Source: Fidelibacterota bacterium (GTDB lineage: Bacteria; Fidelibacterota; UBA8477). Taken from it: a stretch of 27,289 bases of DNA. This document shows positions 18,727 through 26,114 of this stretch, in pieces; the stretch's first letter is position 1, and every line of letters begins with the position of its first letter. The stretch is taken from the NCBI GenBank assembly GCA_021734045.1, contig JAIPJR010000038.1, positions 1 to 27,289 of the forward strand, written 5' to 3'. A program made the position numbers and the translations under genes. A model generated the notes under the pieces. That model was not told where the DNA came from, ran no database searches, and worked only from the letters and a program-made list of their open reading frames with translations.

Positions 18727-19704
18727 ATGTCAACCCAAAAAACAGACGTGCTTATCGTCGGTGGTGGCCCCGCCGGAGCCGCCTGCGCCGGTGTATTAAA
18801 ACAGAATGGTGTGGATTGTCTGGTGCTGGACAAGGCCCCATTCCCCCGGACCAAACCCTGCGCCGGCTGGATTACACCGGAAATTTTTCGCGAATTGAAT
18901 CTATCCCCCACCGACTATCCCCACGGTTTGACCACTTTCCGCTCCTTTCAGATTGCATTCCCCCGCGCCAAATTCAAACTCCCCGTGCACCAGTACGCCA
19001 TTCGCCGGTACGAGTTTGATGCGTGGCTATTACGCCGCTCCGGCGCCCGCGTGGTGAATCACGAGGTCAAAACCATCGTACCCAGGTCGGACGGGTATGA
19101 CATTGACGGAAAATTTTGGGGGAAATATCTGGTGGGGGCCGGCGGGACCCACTGTCCGGTGTATCGTACATTTTTTCAACGCGATGCACCCCGTAAGGCA
19201 GACGCCCTGGTCATCGCCCAGGAGGATGAATTCCCGTATCAGACCACGGATCAACAATGCCGGCTCTGGTTTTTCGAGCATGACCTGCCCGGCTACGCCT
19301 GGTTCGTTCCCAAAACCAATGGTCATGTGAATTTTGGCATCGGTGGTCTGGCGGGTGCACTGAAGCAGCAGGGCGAGACGCTGAAACAACACTGGGAGCT
19401 GCTGCAGCGGCAACTTGAGGCGGCGGGGTTATTACGGCATTACACACGCCGGCCGGTGGGACATTATTATTACCGCCGCGCCCGATCGCAACGTGTGCGG
19501 CAGGAGAATGCCTTTCTGGCCGGGGATGCGGCGTCACTGGCCACTTATGACATGGGTGAAGGCATTCGGGCGGCTATTATGAGCGGTCAGCGGGTGGCGC
19601 AGGCCATTGTTCACGATTCAGCCTATGGCATCAGCAACATACCCAAATATTCCCTGCCCTCTCTCCTCAAGTCCGGTGTGAAATCACTCGTGAGCCTGTC
19701 ATGA
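18727..19704 (+). CDS. FAD-dependent oxidoreductase, geranylgeranyl reductase family
   Basis: A 325-residue flavoprotein. The dinucleotide-binding motif VLIVGGGPAGAACAG lies at 8-22. KPCAGWI (43-49) is the cysteine-containing signature typical of geranylgeranyl-reductase-like proteins. PKTNGHVNFGIGG (195-207) and FLAGDAA (263-269) are the later FAD contacts. Family members reduce isoprenoid double bonds or oxidise and reduce other lipophilic substrates. The ATG at 18727 is chosen because the motif follows at once; the frame is open upstream but only through cfa. The close coupling to cfa suggests a lipid substrate. The C-terminus is a little shorter than many homologues, which may be natural. 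Last gene before the AT-rich cassette region. Confidence 0.82.
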   Translation: MSTQKTDVLIVGGGPAGAACAGVLKQNGVDCLVLDKAPFPRTKPCAGWITPEIFRELNLSPTDYPHGLTTFRSFQIAFPRAKFKLPVHQYAIRRYEFDAWLLRRSGARVVNHEVKTIVPRSDGYDIDGKFWGKYLVGAGGTHCPVYRTFFQRDAPRKADALVIAQEDEFPYQTTDQQCRLWFFEHDLPGYAWFVPKTNGHVNFGIGGLAGALKQQGETLKQHWELLQRQLEAAGLLRHYTRRPVGHYYYRRARSQRVRQENAFLAGDAASLATYDMGEGIRAAIMSGQRVAQAIVHDSAYGISNIPKYSLPSLLKSGVKSLVSLS

Positions 19705-20032
19705 GCGGGGAAACGACGGAAATGGGTCTTGGATGCTAATACCACGCACCTATATTAATCGAACGGAACTGACTTTAAGATGAAAATGATTATGGATACC
19801 GGGAATCAAAATTTACGCTACACCACCGAATTTGTAAAATTAGGACATATTAAAAAAAGGCCAACAAGTGCTGCATTGCGCCATGCCCATGTTTCCAAAC
19901 AGACCTTTACTCAGATTAAATCCCCCGGTTATGATTTCTTCCAACAAGGCTTTGAACTGCTAAAAGAGAAATATAGTCAATTGTGTTTATTCAGCCACAG
20001 GAGCGGGATAACAACAATAGATATAGGCAGTC
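19705..20032. other. Gene-poor junction between core region and cassette block
   Basis: About 330 bases with a shift toward AT-rich sequence. An open frame from 19780 to 20049 encodes 89 residues (with LGHIKKRPTSAALRHAHV) but resembles nothing I know and has no convincing ribosome binding site; it runs across the cassette boundary at 20033. GGGATAAC at 20005-20012 is partly complementary to GTTAT at 20033. No complete attC or attI could be discerned here. Confidence 0.4.
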
Positions 20033-20039
20033 GTTATGC
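20033..20039 (+). repeat. Cassette left-boundary core site GTTATGC
   Basis: A GTTRRRY-like core that is the exact reverse complement of the GCATAAC half-site at 21067-21073. It marks the inferred 5' crossover point of cassette A, 31 bases before the first cassette gene. No complete attC precedes it. Confidence 0.55.
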
Positions 20040-20064
20040 AACAGCTTAAAAAAGACATACAACT

Positions 20065-21054
20065 ATGGCAACAGAAATAAAAACTTGGGAAATAATAGAA
20101 GGTGAATTGTCAGAAATCAATACGACTCTTGCCCAAAATGGACGTAAAGAAAAGGACGATTTGGAAAAGTGGCTGAAAACAAATCCTAAAATACTTGGAG
20201 ACAATATATTAGTTTTCGGAGAGCAAGTTTGGACAAAATCAGGACCACTTGACTATTTGGGAATTGACAATAACGGAAACTTAGTAATTGTTGAATTAAA
20301 ACGTGATAAATTAGCAAGAGATGTTTTAGCTCAAGCAATAGATTACGCCTCAGATGTGGCAAATTGGGATATTGAAAAACTTAATGAAATTTGCTTAACG
20401 TTTTCAGACAATTCACTGGAAGATTATATCACTGACCATTTTGACAATGTCGAACTTGACGATTTGGTAATTAATAAAGCGCAAAGACTTTTATTAGTTG
20501 GATTTTCAATAGACGAAGCTTTAAGTAGAATGATTGAATGGTTGTCATCAAAATATGATGTTGGAATCAATGCAATTATTTTAAACTACGTTAAAACTTC
20601 TTCGGGAAACGAATTACTTTCAAGAACGGTAATCATTCCAGAAGAAATTGAAAAAGAAAAATCGAATAAGAAAAAATTTACAATTCCTATGTCAGATGAA
20701 CCAGGAACATATGAACTTGAAAGATTAAAGGAATTATTAAAAAATTATTTCAACAATAAGCAATGGTCTTCTAAGAGATTAAAAAACATAGTGCTACCTG
20801 TCTTGCTTAAAAAAGAAAAAATAACGAGAGAGCAACTTAAAAAAGAATTTGTGAAAGCTGGAGAAGCCACTGACGAAAACAAAGCAGGATATTTTATTGC
20901 TTTAATTTCAAACCAACTTGGACAGACCAAAAAAGATTTTTTAAGACAGATTATTCACTATGAATATCCTAAATATCATTGGGAAAAAGACAATTTTAGT
21001 ATAAGAACTGAATACAAAGAATTAGTAAAGGATATTTTAGAAATTAAAGAATGA
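20065..21054 (+). CDS. Putative NucS/PD-(D/E)XK-type endonuclease, cassette A
   Basis: A 329-residue AT-rich gene, sole occupant of the first cassette. The N-terminal half (about 25-140) holds a restriction-endonuclease-like core: Asp63 in GPLDYLGID, then Glu77-Leu-Lys79 in VIVELKRDK, then Gln90-x3-Tyr94. This matches the D...ExK...QxxxY pattern of the NucS/DUF91 and RecB-like nuclease families. The C-terminal half (about 210-329) is charged and helical, possibly a winged-helix DNA-binding part. The likely role is cleavage of branched or foreign DNA, but specificity is unknown. The cassette leader is only 31 bases, and the attC begins 13 bases after the stop. Nuclease-fold confidence is high; a defence role is inference from context. 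Confidence 0.72.
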   Translation: MATEIKTWEIIEGELSEINTTLAQNGRKEKDDLEKWLKTNPKILGDNILVFGEQVWTKSGPLDYLGIDNNGNLVIVELKRDKLARDVLAQAIDYASDVANWDIEKLNEICLTFSDNSLEDYITDHFDNVELDDLVINKAQRLLLVGFSIDEALSRMIEWLSSKYDVGINAIILNYVKTSSGNELLSRTVIIPEEIEKEKSNKKKFTIPMSDEPGTYELERLKELLKNYFNNKQWSSKRLKNIVLPVLLKKEKITREQLKKEFVKAGEATDENKAGYFIALISNQLGQTKKDFLRQIIHYEYPKYHWEKDNFSIRTEYKELVKDILEIKE

Positions 21055-21066
21055 ATGAAAGCCGTT

Positions 21067-21200
21067 GCATAACAGGTGGTATATTTTATTGCCGAGATAG
21101 TGCTGAAATGAAAGGTTGTGGCTCGCTTCAAACTTCATCGTGGTTTGACAGTGAAGTGCTCCGAAATCGGCAACAAAAACATACCGCCAAACCGTTGTGT
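21067..21200 (+). repeat. attC-like site 1 (134 bases)
   Basis: Outer half-sites GCATAAC (21067-21073) and GTTGTGT (21194-21200) pair over seven positions with two G-T pairs. Inner arms GGTGGTAT (21075-21082) and ATACCGCC (21181-21188) pair over eight, with unequal spacers (one base against five) as in attC sites. The stem continues with a T/A-rich tract and GCCGA against TCGGC (21091-21095, 21167-21171), leaving a large imperfect loop. Size is in the range of long attC sites. Confidence 0.68.
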
Positions 21201-21246
21201 TTAATTGCAATGTAGGGAGACGTATTTTGCATGAAAGATTAATAAA

Positions 21247-21795
21247 GTGAGCGAATCCGGTTTAATTGTTAAGGACTTTTTGGATCAGATTGACCAAATA
21301 TTTGGTCTTTATTTAGATACATTTTATGCAACTCTAATCTATAGAAGCAAGATGGAGGAAGTTCTTAAAACCAAGCCAACAGATTTTGTCGTGGAAATGA
21401 TAAGCGATGACCCTAAACTACCAGAAACATATCACATGCATTCTGTAACTAAATCTTCCCTACTCAGACGAATTCAAACCGACGGTCATAATACTATGAT
21501 GCTTGGAAATAGTATTATTGTTAATATTTATCAGTTATGGGAAGATGAGATTCGAGGCCGAATTGCCAAAGCTAAAGGTATCATAAAAAATGAAGTTAAT
21601 ATTGATCTATTTGGGGAAGTTAGGCATATTAGGCAAGCCATTGTTCACAACAACAGTTTGATTACGTCTGACTTTAAAAAAGTCATTACAATTGAATACA
21701 CAAAGAAAGAAGATAAGTCCTTTGGATTCACTCACAAACAATTTGAGAAGCTCATTAACGACATTAAGCGAGTTCTTAAGGAGTATTCCAGGTGA
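21247..21795 (+). CDS. HEPN-like protein, cassette B
   Basis: A 182-residue, mainly helical protein starting at GTG 21247; the upstream ATG at 21231 closes after three codons. It carries a HEPN-type R-x4-H motif, Arg129 to His134 in HIRQAIVHNN, preceded by an acidic helix QLWEDEIRGRI (97-107). HEPN proteins are commonly metal-independent RNases used in toxin-antitoxin, abortive-infection and restriction-linked defence. This one has no partner antitoxin in its cassette, so it may be self-contained or a non-toxic member. AGGGAGA at about 21214 is too distant to be an ideal ribosome binding site. Confidence in HEPN is moderate, and the biological role is inference. Confidence 0.6.
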   Translation: MSESGLIVKDFLDQIDQIFGLYLDTFYATLIYRSKMEEVLKTKPTDFVVEMISDDPKLPETYHMHSVTKSSLLRRIQTDGHNTMMLGNSIIVNIYQLWEDEIRGRIAKAKGIIKNEVNIDLFGEVRHIRQAIVHNNSLITSDFKKVITIEYTKKEDKSFGFTHKQFEKLINDIKRVLKEYSR

Positions 21796-21816
21796 ATTCA
21801 GCCACTTTGCAACTAA

Positions 21817-21874
21817 AAACAACAGCGGTTAAACGCCTTTGCTTCGCAACGTCATTTAGCCATGGACGTTGGGG
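21817..21874 (+). repeat. attC-like site 2 (58 bases)
   Basis: Outer half-sites AAACAAC and GTTGGGG share the CAAC/GTTG pairing. Inner arms GGTTAAA (21827-21833) and TTTAGCC (21855-21861) pair over seven bases with one wobble. CG-CG then continues with bulged bases, and TTGC-TTC-GCAA closes the hairpin. The short length, extrahelical bases and asymmetric spacers match compact attC sites. The end, AGCCATGGACGTTGG, resembles the end of site 3. Confidence 0.68.
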
Positions 21875-21877
21875 GCA

Positions 21878-21893
21878 AGGCTAAAAAGCCTAG
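21878..21893 (+). promoter_or_regulatory. Leader hairpin and CTAG site upstream of the methyltransferase
   Basis: AGGCT-AAAA-AGCCT is a perfect five-base-pair hairpin directly after the cassette boundary. It overlaps a CTAG at 21890-21893. TATATT at 21913-21918 could be a -10 box, with the CTAG at the -35 distance. CTAG is the MjaI recognition sequence, so methylation-sensitive autoregulation of the operon is possible. This is inference from position. Confidence 0.3.
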
Positions 21894-21950
21894 AACATCG
21901 GACAGAAAACCTTATATTATGACTAACTTTGCAAACAAAAATATATACAA

Positions 21951-23234
21951 TTGAAGACAGTACACAAAATAGTAAATGGTGACAGCCGACAGATGAATCT
22001 CATTGAAGACAAGTCGGTAGATTTGGTAATTACTTCACCACCATATTGGCAGTTAAAAGACTACGGAACAGAAAATCAAATCGGGTTTCATGAGGACTAC
22101 GAAACTTATATCAACAACTTAAATCTTGTTTGGAAAGAGTGTTATCGAGTTCTTGACAATGGATGCAGGTTGTGTATAAATATCGGAGACCAATTTGCCA
22201 GAGCTGTTTACTACGGTCGTTATAAAGTAATTCCAATCAGAACAGAGATAATTAAATTCTGCGAAAGTATCGGATTTGATTATATGGGAGCCATTATTTG
22301 GCAAAAACAGACTACAACAAATACGACAGGTGGCGCGTCACTGATGGGGAGCTTTCCAACACCAAGGAATGGCATCCTCTCAATTGACTATGAATTTATA
22401 CTGATCTTCAAAAAATTAGGAACACCAAAAAAAGTCAGCAAAGAAATCAAAGACCAGTCTAAAATGACCACGGAGGAATGGAAAGAATATTTTGCAGGTC
22501 ATTGGAACTTTGGTGGGGTAAGACAGGACGGCCATATAGCAATGTTCCCTGAAGAATTGCCCAAACGACTTATAAAAATGTTTGCTTTCAAAGGGGAAAT
22601 TGTTTTGGATCCCTTTATGGGAAGTGGAACAACTTCATTAGCTGCAAGAAATCTTGGACGGAGTTCAGTTGGTTATGAAATAAACCCTGATTTTATTGAA
22701 ATTGCTAAAGAAAAACTGAATATCAATCAGGCTGATATTTCAGGTACATCCTATCAATTCTTGAAAGATACAATTGATTTAGATATTGAAAAGGAGTTTG
22801 AGATCTTACCTTACCGCTTTGTTGATTATCATAAATTTGATAAGAAGGTTGATCCTAAGAAATTACAATTCGGCTCCAAAATTGATAATAATGAAAGCAA
22901 AAGAGAAGAATACTATTCCGTGAAAGAAATTATTAGCCCTGTACTTGTAAAACTAAATAATGACCTCATTGTAAGATTAATTGGCGTGAAAGAAAAGGAA
23001 AGTGCAAATGGTTCAGCAAAACAATTTCTTTACGATAAGACAAAAGGGCAAAAGGTTTTTATGAAGTTCGATAATCAAAAGTATGACGACCAAAATATTC
23101 TAATGTGTTATCTGTATTTGAAAAATAGGACTTTCTTAAATGCTCACCTTATCAAAGAGGGTTTAGCGTTACCAAATACAGAGATAGAATTCAAATACAA
23201 AAATAAATTTACAAAGCTTGCTACTAATGAATGA
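21951..23234 (+). CDS. MjaI-type DNA methyltransferase with SNase-like tail, cassette C
   Basis: A 427-residue protein. The N-terminal domain (1-260) is a beta-class DNA methyltransferase: catalytic motif TSPPYW at 28-33 comes first and the SAM-binding DPFMGSGTT at 220-228 near its end, typical of N4-cytosine or N6-adenine enzymes. The neighbouring MjaI-like endonuclease predicts N4-methylation of CTAG. The C-terminal part (about 325-405; VRLIGVKEKES, VFMKFDNQKYD, FLNAHLIKEGLA) matches the staphylococcal-nuclease (SNase) fold. However, Lys347 stands where a catalytic Asp is expected and no Arg occupies the second catalytic position. Start is TTG 21951; the ATG at 21919 opens only an 11-codon frame that overlaps it. 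The broken small gene and the endonuclease gene follow. Confidence 0.82.
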   Translation: MKTVHKIVNGDSRQMNLIEDKSVDLVITSPPYWQLKDYGTENQIGFHEDYETYINNLNLVWKECYRVLDNGCRLCINIGDQFARAVYYGRYKVIPIRTEIIKFCESIGFDYMGAIIWQKQTTTNTTGGASLMGSFPTPRNGILSIDYEFILIFKKLGTPKKVSKEIKDQSKMTTEEWKEYFAGHWNFGGVRQDGHIAMFPEELPKRLIKMFAFKGEIVLDPFMGSGTTSLAARNLGRSSVGYEINPDFIEIAKEKLNINQADISGTSYQFLKDTIDLDIEKEFEILPYRFVDYHKFDKKVDPKKLQFGSKIDNNESKREEYYSVKEIISPVLVKLNNDLIVRLIGVKEKESANGSAKQFLYDKTKGQKVFMKFDNQKYDDQNILMCYLYLKNRTFLNAHLIKEGLALPNTEIEFKYKNKFTKLATNE

Positions 23235-23247
23235 GGAACAAAACGCC

Positions 23248-23530
23248 ATGCTCGATTATCTGAATTAAAATACAATTGGGTACAATAATCGTAAATCATC
23301 AACTGAAATCAGAGAATTTCTTAAACTTGAAAATGGACTAGTTACAAGATTTGATACGGGAAATGATTCTTAACCAAGGTGTCTGTATTGGTAGTCTTAT
23401 GTGGGACAGTGGCTATTGGATTATTCAGGATGAAAAACAATTAAATCGGGTCTGTGAAAGTTTAGAAAGTCGTGCAGATTCAGTCCATGAGAGAGCTAAC
23501 GCTCCAAGTAGAAACTGGGAGAATAGATAA
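23248..23530 (+). pseudogene. Broken small winged-helix-like gene between M and R genes
   Basis: The pieces read as one small protein. ATG 23248 starts MLDYLN, then an in-frame TAA, then NTIGYNNRKSSTEIREFLK. After about 23340 the sense passes to another frame: LQDLIREMILN, then GSLMWDSGYWIIQDEKQLN and RVCESLESRADSV, ending at TAA 23530. The composite of about 90 residues has the helix-helix-wing layout of small phage or plasmid HTH proteins. Its 3' end is two bases from the endonuclease start, so it was probably translated with it. It may have been a controller (C-protein-like) of the restriction system. A sequencing error could explain one lesion, but hardly both a stop and a frameshift. Confidence 0.5.
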
Positions 23531-23532
23531 AT

Positions 23533-24165
23533 ATGGCAAAAGAATGGATTTTAAATAGTGCAATGAATCGGTTTCAGCTAAATTTCAAACGAAATGTCGG
23601 GCCGACATCAGAGAGCATCAGGAAATGTGAACCTAAAACCCTTGAAGAGTGGAGGGAATACTACTTTAAAGAGGTTCGTTCTAAAGACCATATCATTGAA
23701 CTTGGGAAAAAACTTTACATAAAAATAACAGAAGTAATTTCGGCTGAAGTTGAAGAAATCACCGAGCAAGATTGTATTGATTACATGCTCAAAATTGTAA
23801 TAGACAGGACATTTGACGGATATTGGACGGAAATCAAAACTATTTATGGTCAACTCGAGCAAGAGCTTGGGTATAAAATTGAACCGGCTCCGGACAAGTG
23901 GGACAGATCATATAATGTTGACTTCTTTATCAAAATCAAGGACAATCATATAGGTCTTCAAATAAAACCTGTAAATCAAGGAATACAGCTTCCTCAAATT
24001 TTTAAAGAGAAAGGATTGCAGGAAAAGACACATGCTAAATTTGAAAAGGAATTTGGTGGCAAAGTGTTTTATATTTTTTCTTCCAAGGCGAATGGGAAGA
24101 AAGTCATTATGAATCCTGAAGTAATTGAAGAAATTCGGAAGGAAATTAACCGACTTGAACAATAA
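23533..24165 (+). CDS. MjaI-family type II restriction endonuclease, cassette C
   Basis: A 210-residue protein that I recognise as the MjaI restriction endonuclease family (RE_MjaI), whose prototype cleaves CTAG. Family-like segments are EWILNSAMNRFQLNFKR (4-20), EEWREYYF (38-45), QDCIDYMLKIVIDRTFDGYW (79-98), and DKWDRSYNVDF followed by GLQIKP (121-131, 141-146). Asp130 and Gln143-Ile-Lys145 probably form a variant PD-(D/E)XK site. Length is full. It follows the methyltransferase by about 300 bases that hold only the broken small gene. The downstream attC starts two bases after its stop, so the methyltransferase and endonuclease travel as one cassette. Family assignment is from recalled motifs, not a search. 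Confidence 0.8.
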   Translation: MAKEWILNSAMNRFQLNFKRNVGPTSESIRKCEPKTLEEWREYYFKEVRSKDHIIELGKKLYIKITEVISAEVEEITEQDCIDYMLKIVIDRTFDGYWTEIKTIYGQLEQELGYKIEPAPDKWDRSYNVDFFIKIKDNHIGLQIKPVNQGIQLPQIFKEKGLQEKTHAKFEKEFGGKVFYIFSSKANGKKVIMNPEVIEEIRKEINRLEQ

Positions 24166-24166
24166 T

Positions 24167-24307
24167 GCCCAGCCCCTCAAAAAAAGGCTATAGGCAATGG
24201 CGGCTGACACTGTAAAAATGAATATTCAAACACATAAGAAATTTTTGGTTTCGGTTGACAGTGACGTATTCCAAATCCGCCACTGCTCATAGCCATGGCC
24301 GCTGGCA
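24167..24307 (+). repeat. attC-like site 3 with variant core (141 bases)
   Basis: Arms GGCTAT (24186-24191) with ATAGCC (24289-24294), and TGGCGG (24198-24203) with CCGCCA (24277-24282), form a long stem, continued by CACTG with CAGTG (24208-24212, 24259-24263). Outer half-sites are TGCCCAGC (24166-24173) and GCTGGCA (24301-24307), which pair with one bulged C. The core reads AGC/GCT instead of the usual AAC/GTT. The end AGCCATGGCCGCTGG parallels that of site 2. Confidence 0.62.
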
Positions 24308-24333
24308 TTCATTACGGGACGAAAATTCGACAT

Positions 24334-24696
24334 ATGAATTCAATGAAAAAACCTGAAAATGTAGCGGTCCAAAAATTTTTGGACGAAATAGAATTGATCG
24401 ATGCTGAGAAGGCTGATGCTCTCATTGGAATACGTGAAATCATTTTAAATCATTTCCCGAAAACTGACGAAAGGATCATGTATGGCGGCATTGTATTTTT
24501 TCTCGATGATGAAATGTATAGTGGATTATTTTTAAACAAGAAGCATGTCACCCTTGAATTTTCCAGAGGATTTCTAATGGAAGATCCTAACCGGGTCCTT
24601 GAAGGAAAAGGCAAATACCGAAGACACCTGAAAATATTGACAAAAGATGACGTCTTAAGCAAAGGCGTTTCCTTCTTTGTGAAACAAGCAGTATAA
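24334..24696 (+). CDS. DUF1801 (YdhG-like) domain protein, cassette D
   Basis: A 120-residue protein of the DUF1801 family, seen in FLDEIE...DALIGIREIILNHFPKTDERIMYGG and in the segment VFFLDDEMYSGLF with FSRGFLMEDPNRVLEGKGKYRRHLK. The frame is open from an ATG at 24295, but that lies inside attC site 3. The ATGs at 24334 and 24343 are better starts because they follow the core site, and I use the first. Members are small single-domain proteins of unknown function, related to iron chaperone frataxin-like folds. It is AT-rich like its neighbours and is the first gene of the fourth cassette; no right-hand attC was found after it. Intact. Confidence 0.78.
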   Translation: MNSMKKPENVAVQKFLDEIELIDAEKADALIGIREIILNHFPKTDERIMYGGIVFFLDDEMYSGLFLNKKHVTLEFSRGFLMEDPNRVLEGKGKYRRHLKILTKDDVLSKGVSFFVKQAV

Positions 24697-24721
24697 ATTG
24701 ATTCAAGTGCTTTAAAAAAAT

Positions 24722-25034
24722 ATGGCTTCACTTTCACCGAACATTTTTGCAAAAGACATCCGCGAGATGATTAATTTTAATGAAAACATCGGATTTCAAG
24801 TTGCTATGACCGTTCCGGAAGAAGGCGACTTTGTGGTGGTGATGATGACCTGGTTTCATGTTTCAAACATAGGAGAGTTTGGGCTCAGAACTGCCCGAAA
24901 TATCAAGATGAAATGGAGCTTCATTATTACGATACATCCAAATAAAACGAATCAGGCAATTTCACGATAAAATAAAGGGCAGAGTGAAAGTCATCAAAGA
25001 CATTCGAAAAATCGCAGCTGTCTTTGAAGTCTGA
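24722..25034 (+). pseudogene. Frameshifted VOC/glyoxalase-family gene
   Basis: The start reads as a normal VOC-family protein (NIFAKDIREMINFNENIGFQ, then VAMTVPEEGDFVVVMMT). After about 24855 the sense moves to other frames: FMFQT, an in-frame TAG, then ESLGSELPEISR. A third stretch, GASLLRYIQI, then QFHDKIKGRVKVIKDIRK, ends at TGA 25034. The pieces follow the usual order of VOC metal-binding enzymes (glyoxalase or bleomycin-resistance fold), so this is a decayed gene with at least two lesions. It lies 25 bases behind the DUF1801 gene and is followed directly by a truncated reductase fragment, marking the decayed right flank of the cassette block. Confidence 0.65.
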
Positions 25035-25275
25035 AGAATCCTCAAAAAATCCCCTTCACCTGGTAGCCAGTCTGGATGGTTCTATCGTCAAAAATGACGG
25101 CAGATTTACCTGGATGGACTCTACAGACCAATGCCCACCAGCTATGACCCTGTCCGACGATGATATTACTTATTTCCTGGCAGCGGTGGATTGTTATGTC
25201 ATGGGTTCCAGCACCTATGAACACGCCGTTGAACCGGGCTGGCTGTACGGGGGCGATCATTGCGCTTTCCGATGA
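25024..25275 (+). pseudogene. Truncated RibD C-terminal/dihydrofolate-reductase-like gene
   Basis: About 80 residues survive: LHLVASLDGSIVKNDGRFTWMD and VDCYVMGSSTYEHAVEP. These match the N-terminal half of RibD-C/DHFR-like reductases (SLDGxI and MGxxTYE motifs), which normally have about 180 residues. The reading stops at TGA 25275 with no remaining NADPH-binding part. There is no convincing start codon; the frame emerges from the end of the VOC remnant. It is a fragment rather than a functional gene. The next 130 bases to the DUF4386 gene hold only an A/T-rich stretch. Confidence 0.6.
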
Positions 25276-25409
25276 TAATTTTTTTTAAAAAAAGGAAATA
25301 TGTGTGTCTAATAGCCTGGTTTATTATAAAATCAGCTTATCATAAAAACCCAGCGCCCTACAAGGTAAAACTGCTGATTTGAACCTCATTAAAAAGGACC
25401 CTATACCAG

Positions 25410-26114
25410 ATGTCAAACCCCACCACTCACACCGTTTCTTTGAAATCCGCCGCGCTTGTGGCCGGATTGAGCCTCTTGCTCATGGCCATCCTGGCACCCA
25501 TTGCCAATTTTGGCATTTTATTGAAGCTCTATGTCCCCGGTGATGCCGCTACCACGTTCCATAACTTCACCACCTCATCCGGGAGCGTCCGCTGGGCGGT
25601 GCTGCTATTTCTCATCGTTGCGATTTTGGATATTATCGTCGCCTGGGCACTTTACCTGGTTTTCAAATCCGTCAATCAGGGCATCTCCCTGCTCACCGGC
25701 TGGATCCGGGTGGTTTATGCCGCCATGCTGGGCACGGCACTTTTTCGTCTGTTGAATGTCCTGCAGTTGACGGGCGCTGGAGAAAATCTACCCGGTCTGG
25801 CGCCGCAGCAGCTCCACACGCAAACCCTTTTGGCATTCCAGTCTTTCCAGGATGGTTGGAGCATGAGCCTTATCATTTTCGGCATTCACCTCGGGCTCCT
25901 GGGTTACCTAACCGTTAAATCGGGACTTTTCCCAAAATGGCTGGGCGTCCTGGTCGTCATCGCCGGTCTGGGTTATTGCATTGATTCAGCGGGGAAAATG
26001 CTGTCGCCCACCTACGACCTGAATCTGGCTGCATATACATTCCTGGGTGAGGTTCTGCTCATGGGATGGCTCATTTGGCGGGGTGTGAAAGGATTTGACA
26101 GGGCATCCGGTTAA
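25410..26114 (+). CDS. DUF4386 family integral membrane protein
   Basis: A 234-residue inner-membrane protein with about six hydrophobic segments: AALVAGLSLLLMAILAPIA, WAVLLFLIVAILDIIVAWAL, IRVVYAAMLGTALFRLLNV, SLIIFGIHLGLLGYL, WLGVLVVIAGLGYCI and LAAYTFLGEVLLMGWLIW. The FGIHLGLLGYL-V-KSGLFPKWLG stretch is a hallmark of the DUF4386 family, whose function is unknown. AAGGA lies 12 bases before the ATG. Base composition returns to that of the left part of the window, so the AT-rich cassette island ends before this gene. Confidence 0.85.
   Translation: MSNPTTHTVSLKSAALVAGLSLLLMAILAPIANFGILLKLYVPGDAATTFHNFTTSSGSVRWAVLLFLIVAILDIIVAWALYLVFKSVNQGISLLTGWIRVVYAAMLGTALFRLLNVLQLTGAGENLPGLAPQQLHTQTLLAFQSFQDGWSMSLIIFGIHLGLLGYLTVKSGLFPKWLGVLVVIAGLGYCIDSAGKMLSPTYDLNLAAYTFLGEVLLMGWLIWRGVKGFDRASG

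Follow-up and report, generated by a model that had tools for sequence, protein, structure and literature searches.

The 27,289-nucleotide stretch analysed here (the window), which is contig C2 of the 2.5-Mb metagenome-assembled genome of a lake bacterium, carries an island that is very probably a short and now stranded array of an integron-like platform run by an Xer-like tyrosine recombinase. Support at the level of the sequence comes from the anatomy of the array, covariation in its sites, closure of the cassettes as circles, a common attI followed by different first cassettes, and a linkage to the recombinase that extends throughout the family; catalysis, folding as single strands, action in trans and recombination itself are what we infer from these. 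The recombinase in the window is broken, and so short an array cannot reveal recent movement. We read this integron-like platform without the I2 domain, with its restriction-modification and nuclease-like cargo, as a new variant to which the rAID clusters are the closest described system; no description of such a platform was found in the open-access literature, which sets the scope of this judgement.

The cassette array and its broken recombinase

The island (19.75-25.3 kb) is poorer in GC than its surroundings, with about 30-43% compared with about 50% on either side; it is bounded by two host genes, and all of its cargo genes are on one strand (Table 1). Three hairpin-forming elements of 134, 58 and 141 bp are found, one after each of the first three units, and the junction sequence is G|TT at 20033, 21194 and 21868 and G|CT at 24301, the four positions at which the preliminary description had already placed the cassette boundaries. 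The non-proteobacterial host that it proposed is borne out by a 94% identical protein in a related Candidatus Neomarinimicrobiota MAG.

The product of the first cassette is PD-(D/E)XK nuclease-like (a weak NucS_C match) and falls in the PADLOC candidate defence family PDC-S11; its closest homologue found (G025, 58%) lies outside any recognised cassette. Cassette 3 encodes an N6/N4 MTase with an SNase-like tail (21951-23234) and an MjaI-family endonuclease (23533-24165). PADLOC and domain matches are in line with the nuclease-like and restriction-modification parts of the cargo as originally described; the HEPN-like part is an RQAIVH motif spotted by eye in the short protein of cassette 2, whose ORF has no match in Pfam, NCBIfam or PADLOC. 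No counterpart of the window's cassette proteins was found in the other arrays, and an Rfam search gave no relevant match.

Table 1. Features of the island and its left flank, in window positions
Feature	Position	Strand	Basis or remark
Left flanking host gene, FAD-dependent reductase-like	18727..19704	+	88% aa identity to G001 homologue, which is followed there by an intact recombinase
Xer-like tyrosine recombinase remnant, internally deleted	19780..19960	+	tblastn with C72 protein, E=2e-6; blastn of both ends
attI-like site, end ...AACAATAGATATAGGCAGTC|GTT	19966..20032	+	match to G001:C67; same layout behind other family recombinases
Cassette 1	20033..21193	+	ORF 20065-21054; circle closure 13/14 nt
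attC-like site A, 134 bp	21067-21200	+	R'' GCATAAC, R' GTTGTGT; R1 80.4 bits (E 1e-17)
Cassette 2	21194..21867	+	ORF 21247-21795; circle closure 12/14
attC-like site B, short form, 58 bp	21817-21874	+	R1 25.5 bits (E 8e-5)
Cassette 3, type II restriction-modification	21868..24300	+	circle closure 9/14, weak
attC-like site C, 141 bp	24167-24307	+	R'' GCCCAGC, R' GCTGGCA; crossover GCT, not GTT; R1 57.5 bits (E 3e-12)
Start of cassette 4, DUF1801 ORF ending 24696	24301..24696	+	own 3' site missing
Degraded AT-rich tail of the array	24697..25400		precedes host DUF4386 gene (25410-26114)

Although no integrase had been seen in the preliminary description, the array is immediately preceded by what is left of a tyrosine recombinase. 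The 5' part of this remnant resembles a gene on contig C49 of a congener (G001), and its 3' part resembles the genes on G001:C67 and on C72 of the window's own genome (G000). On G001:C49 the tyrosine recombinase is intact and follows the left flanking gene, the contig ending 13 bp past the recombinase stop. The C72 paralogue, on its own contig, is likewise intact, with a similar attI-like segment and a stop codon 89 bp from the contig edge. The recombinase of G001:C67 (locus L093) has an internal stop codon, so that the window is not the only place where the local recombinase has decayed.

The array-linked recombinase belongs to an Xer-like family without the IntI-specific insert (I2/patch III) rather than to IntI. 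Against the IntI profile TIGR02249 the C72 protein falls below the curated cut-off and aligns in two pieces, skipping positions 179-242, though IntI4 also matched in two stretches; the spacing from KDR to HxLRH, where measurable, is about 58 aa in the array recombinases vs. 100 in IntI. In the tree, IntI proteins, including IntI1, form a single clade (support 100/100) with the array recombinases outside it, in two groups that are apart from an array-less Xer-like clade and from XerC/D, the deep branches being weakly supported. The catalytic residues R125, K150, H214, R217, H240 and Y249 are invariant in 20 members of the array recombinase family. A fold search with the predicted model (mean pLDDT 82.7) gave archaeal Xer and IntI4 as the best matches, with the aligned range of IntI4 about 44 residues longer; this search serves for similarity only and cannot demonstrate the absence of a domain.

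By blastn, the segment at 19915-20035 aligns with G001:C67 at 81% identity over 121 bp, in a match that stops exactly at the GTT junction, and the cassettes behind it differ between the two genomes, which is the boundary polymorphism at 20033 that had been proposed as a check. These are congeners rather than strains of one species, and the comparison stands in for one with an empty site: of the congener contigs, G001:C49 carries the left flank but stops at the array, while G002:C55 carries only the right flank. Similar attI-like segments are conserved behind the family recombinases, with apparent insertion at G|TT, and one is common to two phyla, Neomarinimicrobiota and Bacteroidota (84% over 75 bp up to the junction).

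The attC-like sites and circle closure

A covariance model, R1, was built from 31 sites, all of them from genomes other than that of the window. It is mostly sequence-driven (8 pairs in 132 positions), and double compensatory changes are seen in all 8 predicted pairs of the inner stem among the 31 sites. On both strands of the window R1 has exactly three matches, which are the three structured elements of the preliminary description; with the cargo described above, they support its view of a defence-gene cassette array with attC-like sites. R1 delimits site C as 24176-24307 and finds nothing in the window beyond 24307 that could terminate cassette 4, and in the whole 2.5-Mb genome it matches the two long window sites only.

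The same model run on 39 further loci (454 kb) gave 48 matches, 47 of them in loci of array-type recombinases, and zero in the loci of the array-less Xer-like clade; the remaining match (14.8 bits) is in an IntI array of the relatives. All 88 non-window matches at family loci lie downstream of the recombinase and on its strand. Near-identical sites occur in Neomarinimicrobiota and Bacteroidota (90% over 142 bp), the match being limited to the site and excluding the gene. The arrays at L175 and L179 were found by a search for circle closure and missed by R1, so the sites of the family vary. A structure-only attC finder proved far too loose (47 matches on one strand) and was dropped in favour of the closure search and the covariance models.

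At its start each window unit is complementary to its own R'' arm, as expected of circular cassettes; this closure is strong for two units and weak for cassette 3. In arrays outside the training set, 30 units lying between successive R1 sites were compared: the six bases after GTT are complementary to the unit's own R'' arm at a mean of 4.83 of 6 nt vs. 2.04 for the arms of other units, and none of 10,000 permutations did as well. The arrays consist of cassettes in tandem on one strand, every one with its gene and a hairpin site at its end and closing as a circle, except that the final window unit has no site of its own and closure is weak in cassette 3.

The sites of the family are laid out as R'', short spacer, 20-bp stem, variable loop, stem, about 5 nt and R'. 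Some 19-20 bp of the stem are paired. Of the 31 sites, 26 have an A.C mismatch at position 15, and none has extrahelical bases at a fixed position; on folding, 28 of the 31 are more stable as the bottom strand, the opposite of what is seen in IntI sites. The three sites of the window follow this layout less strictly: two are somewhat bulged, at no common position, and there is no strand bias in folding energy.

In the mechanism that we propose, the recombinase without I2, encoded immediately upstream of the attI-like site and on the cassette strand, would insert circular cassettes into attI at G|TT, each cassette made up of a gene or operon plus a single hairpin-forming attC-like site. A cassette would leave as a circle when two neighbouring sites recombine, and could be reshuffled in this way. 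Folded single strands are probably the active form of the sites, the bottom strand being preferred and the stem with its mismatch taking the role of the extrahelical bases. As the local recombinase is a deletion remnant, any movement in this genome would depend on the intact C72 paralogue acting in trans.

IntI, XerC/XerD and other candidate explanations

The most serious alternative, though in our view an unlikely one, is that of a conventional integron, in which these would be ordinary attC sites in a CALIN loaded and reshuffled in trans by a true IntI. Such an enzyme is indeed encoded elsewhere in this genome, on contig C115 (480 bits vs. the TIGR02249 cut-off of 265), with its own cassette adjacent, and with their AAC/GTT boxes, their paired R and L arms and a length of about 130 bp the window sites are similar in geometry to those in the IntI arrays of relatives. 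IntI recognises structure more than sequence, which fits action in trans on sites such as these. Models of the two kinds of site, however, hardly match each other's arrays: R1 has zero matches in the C115 region itself, in two class 1 arrays and in the Thiodictyon and Kovacikia integron regions, its one hit to an IntI array being the 14.8-bit match mentioned above, while a reciprocal model, R2, from 15 IntI-array sites (narrow, with an effective n of 4.3) finds no site in the window and, apart from a single partial match of 17.9 bits in the family arrays, matches IntI arrays only. The stems differ as well, all 15 of the IntI-array sites being bulged with extrahelical bases at recurrent positions, mostly 9 and 16 after AAC, as against the A.C mismatch at position 15 of the family sites. 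Finally, the array adjoins the remnant of a recombinase that is not IntI, and most comparable Bacteroidota genomes (15 of the 18 with such loci) are without IntI. Of the integron reading first offered, the cassettes and the attC-like sites stand, but not the plain IntI integron without its integrase, as the linked recombinase is of the non-IntI, Xer-like family.

Several features of the IntI loci themselves may be recorded. On C115 (L019 235-391 and 1711-1843) an ORF-less, hairpin-rich repeat occupies the attI position of IntI and recurs after the first cassette. IntI arrays lie 3' of intI in Neomarinimicrobiota loci L005, L033, L045 and L049, and IntI is above the cut-off in 17 of the 40 genomes searched.

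It is improbable that the adjacent Xer-like recombinase is a bystander and that the housekeeping XerC/XerD move the cassettes. Xer recombinases are able to act on folded phage DNA (CTXphi), and Xer proteins and IntI4 are the closest in the fold search, but the array recombinases are separate from XerC/D and from the array-less clade, the attI-like segments are conserved, and the constant position and strand of the non-window R1 sites behind the family recombinases tie the two together. Least probable are dispersed repeats, terminators or mobile hairpins with no role in recombination, the outcome that was to have refuted the cassette reading: the elements do form hairpins and come after stop codons, but each unit's start is complementary to its own arm, the orientation is constant, only one array was found in the genome, and the near-identical sites in the two phyla match over the site and not the gene.

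Known systems and distribution of the family

With the platform run by an Xer-like recombinase as the preferred reading, its nearest described counterpart is the rAID (recombinase-associated acquired interbacterial defence) of gut Bacteroidales (PMC12247911 and its reference 16). In these clusters the genes behind a predicted tyrosine recombinase are low in GC, share one orientation and have conserved motifs between them, and the mechanism of biogenesis has been called an open question (PMC12247911). They are defined by a homologous tyrosine recombinase upstream of at least 2 co-oriented genes of <41% GC, with orphan T6SS immunity cargo. A layout of this kind occurs in relatives, the recombinase of the window itself being a remnant; the cargo here is instead nuclease-like, MTase and MjaI endonuclease, and the host is from Neomarinimicrobiota rather than the gut Bacteroidales. 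On a Bacteroides ovatus plasmid, a recombinase with 56.5% identity to the C72 protein is followed by a run of same-strand genes, some of them for predicted immunity proteins; the cluster looks like a rAID, which is our own reading and is not stated in the record. Its intergenic sites are hairpin-like and similar in general layout, but of about 60 bp and with an ATTA crossover, against mostly about 130 bp and GTT in the family; R1 finds no site in this cluster, and circle closure there is not significant, being mostly no better than with other units. The cluster (L196 7695-16774) comprises the recombinase and 13 genes on one strand, of which several are predicted to confer immunity, and the intergenic sites measure about 40-80 bp.

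Sedentary chromosomal integrons share with the present array the cassette of one gene or operon and a hairpin site, the single orientation behind recombinase and attI, the AAC/GTT boxes, the circular-cassette logic and the defence cargo; they differ in having a recombinase of the IntI clade (100/100) with its insert, and fixed extrahelical bases in place of the mismatched stem of 19-20 bp found here. The xerD/tnpF-tet(X3) unit of Acinetobacter plasmids has a recombinase 58.5% identical to the C72 protein and the same order of attI-like palindrome, G|TT junction, gene and left half of an attC-like site, so that tet(X3) looks like a captured cassette, though a single, truncated one in IS-rich plasmid DNA with weak closure (8/12). 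In plasmid p80-1-2-tetX3 (L193 5052-7150) the xerD/tnpF before tet(X3) is a recombinase of this family. In pdif modules, 28-bp XerC/XerD sites flank genes in inverted orientation; the hairpins here are of 58-141 bp and directly oriented.

Neither the I2 domain of IntI nor the extrahelical attC bases would seem of use without the other, a chicken-and-egg problem (Escudero et al. 2016, PMC4792948). A platform that has cassettes, attI and hairpin sites yet lacks both I2 and extrahelical bases would make this question testable. Loci of this kind escape standard integron searches, which demand the IntI domain (PMC9668308). Few integrons were reported in Bacteroidetes by the IntegronFinder 2.0 survey (PMC9024848), yet the family recombinase is present in 94 of 395 sampled Bacteroidota genomes (at 1e-65). 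Such a platform, running without a recombinase part regarded as indispensable to integrons, could shed light on integron evolution and on gene exchange among Bacteroidota, and may, as leads only, explain the growth of rAID clusters and the mobilisation of tet(X3). The balance is even on whether there is a second integron class across Bacteroidota and Neomarinimicrobiota, with an Xer-like recombinase without I2, circular cassettes and folded sites without extrahelical bases, that would include rAID and the source platform of tet(X3) and would represent, in living form, the stage that preceded the gain of the special domain by IntI.

Among Neomarinimicrobiota, relatives of the family are found in 36 of 245 genomes at 1e-45, a count that includes the array-less Xer-like clade. 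R1 sites number 2-45 per genome in 14 genomes with the recombinase and 0-7 in 14 with no match to it at 1e-65. Where the sequence continues past a family recombinase an array usually follows; many Neomarinimicrobiota contigs end just past it, as would be expected of assemblies that break before variable arrays. An identical 522-aa protein is encoded by two neighbouring cassettes at locus L170, in the units that start after 5333 and 7784.
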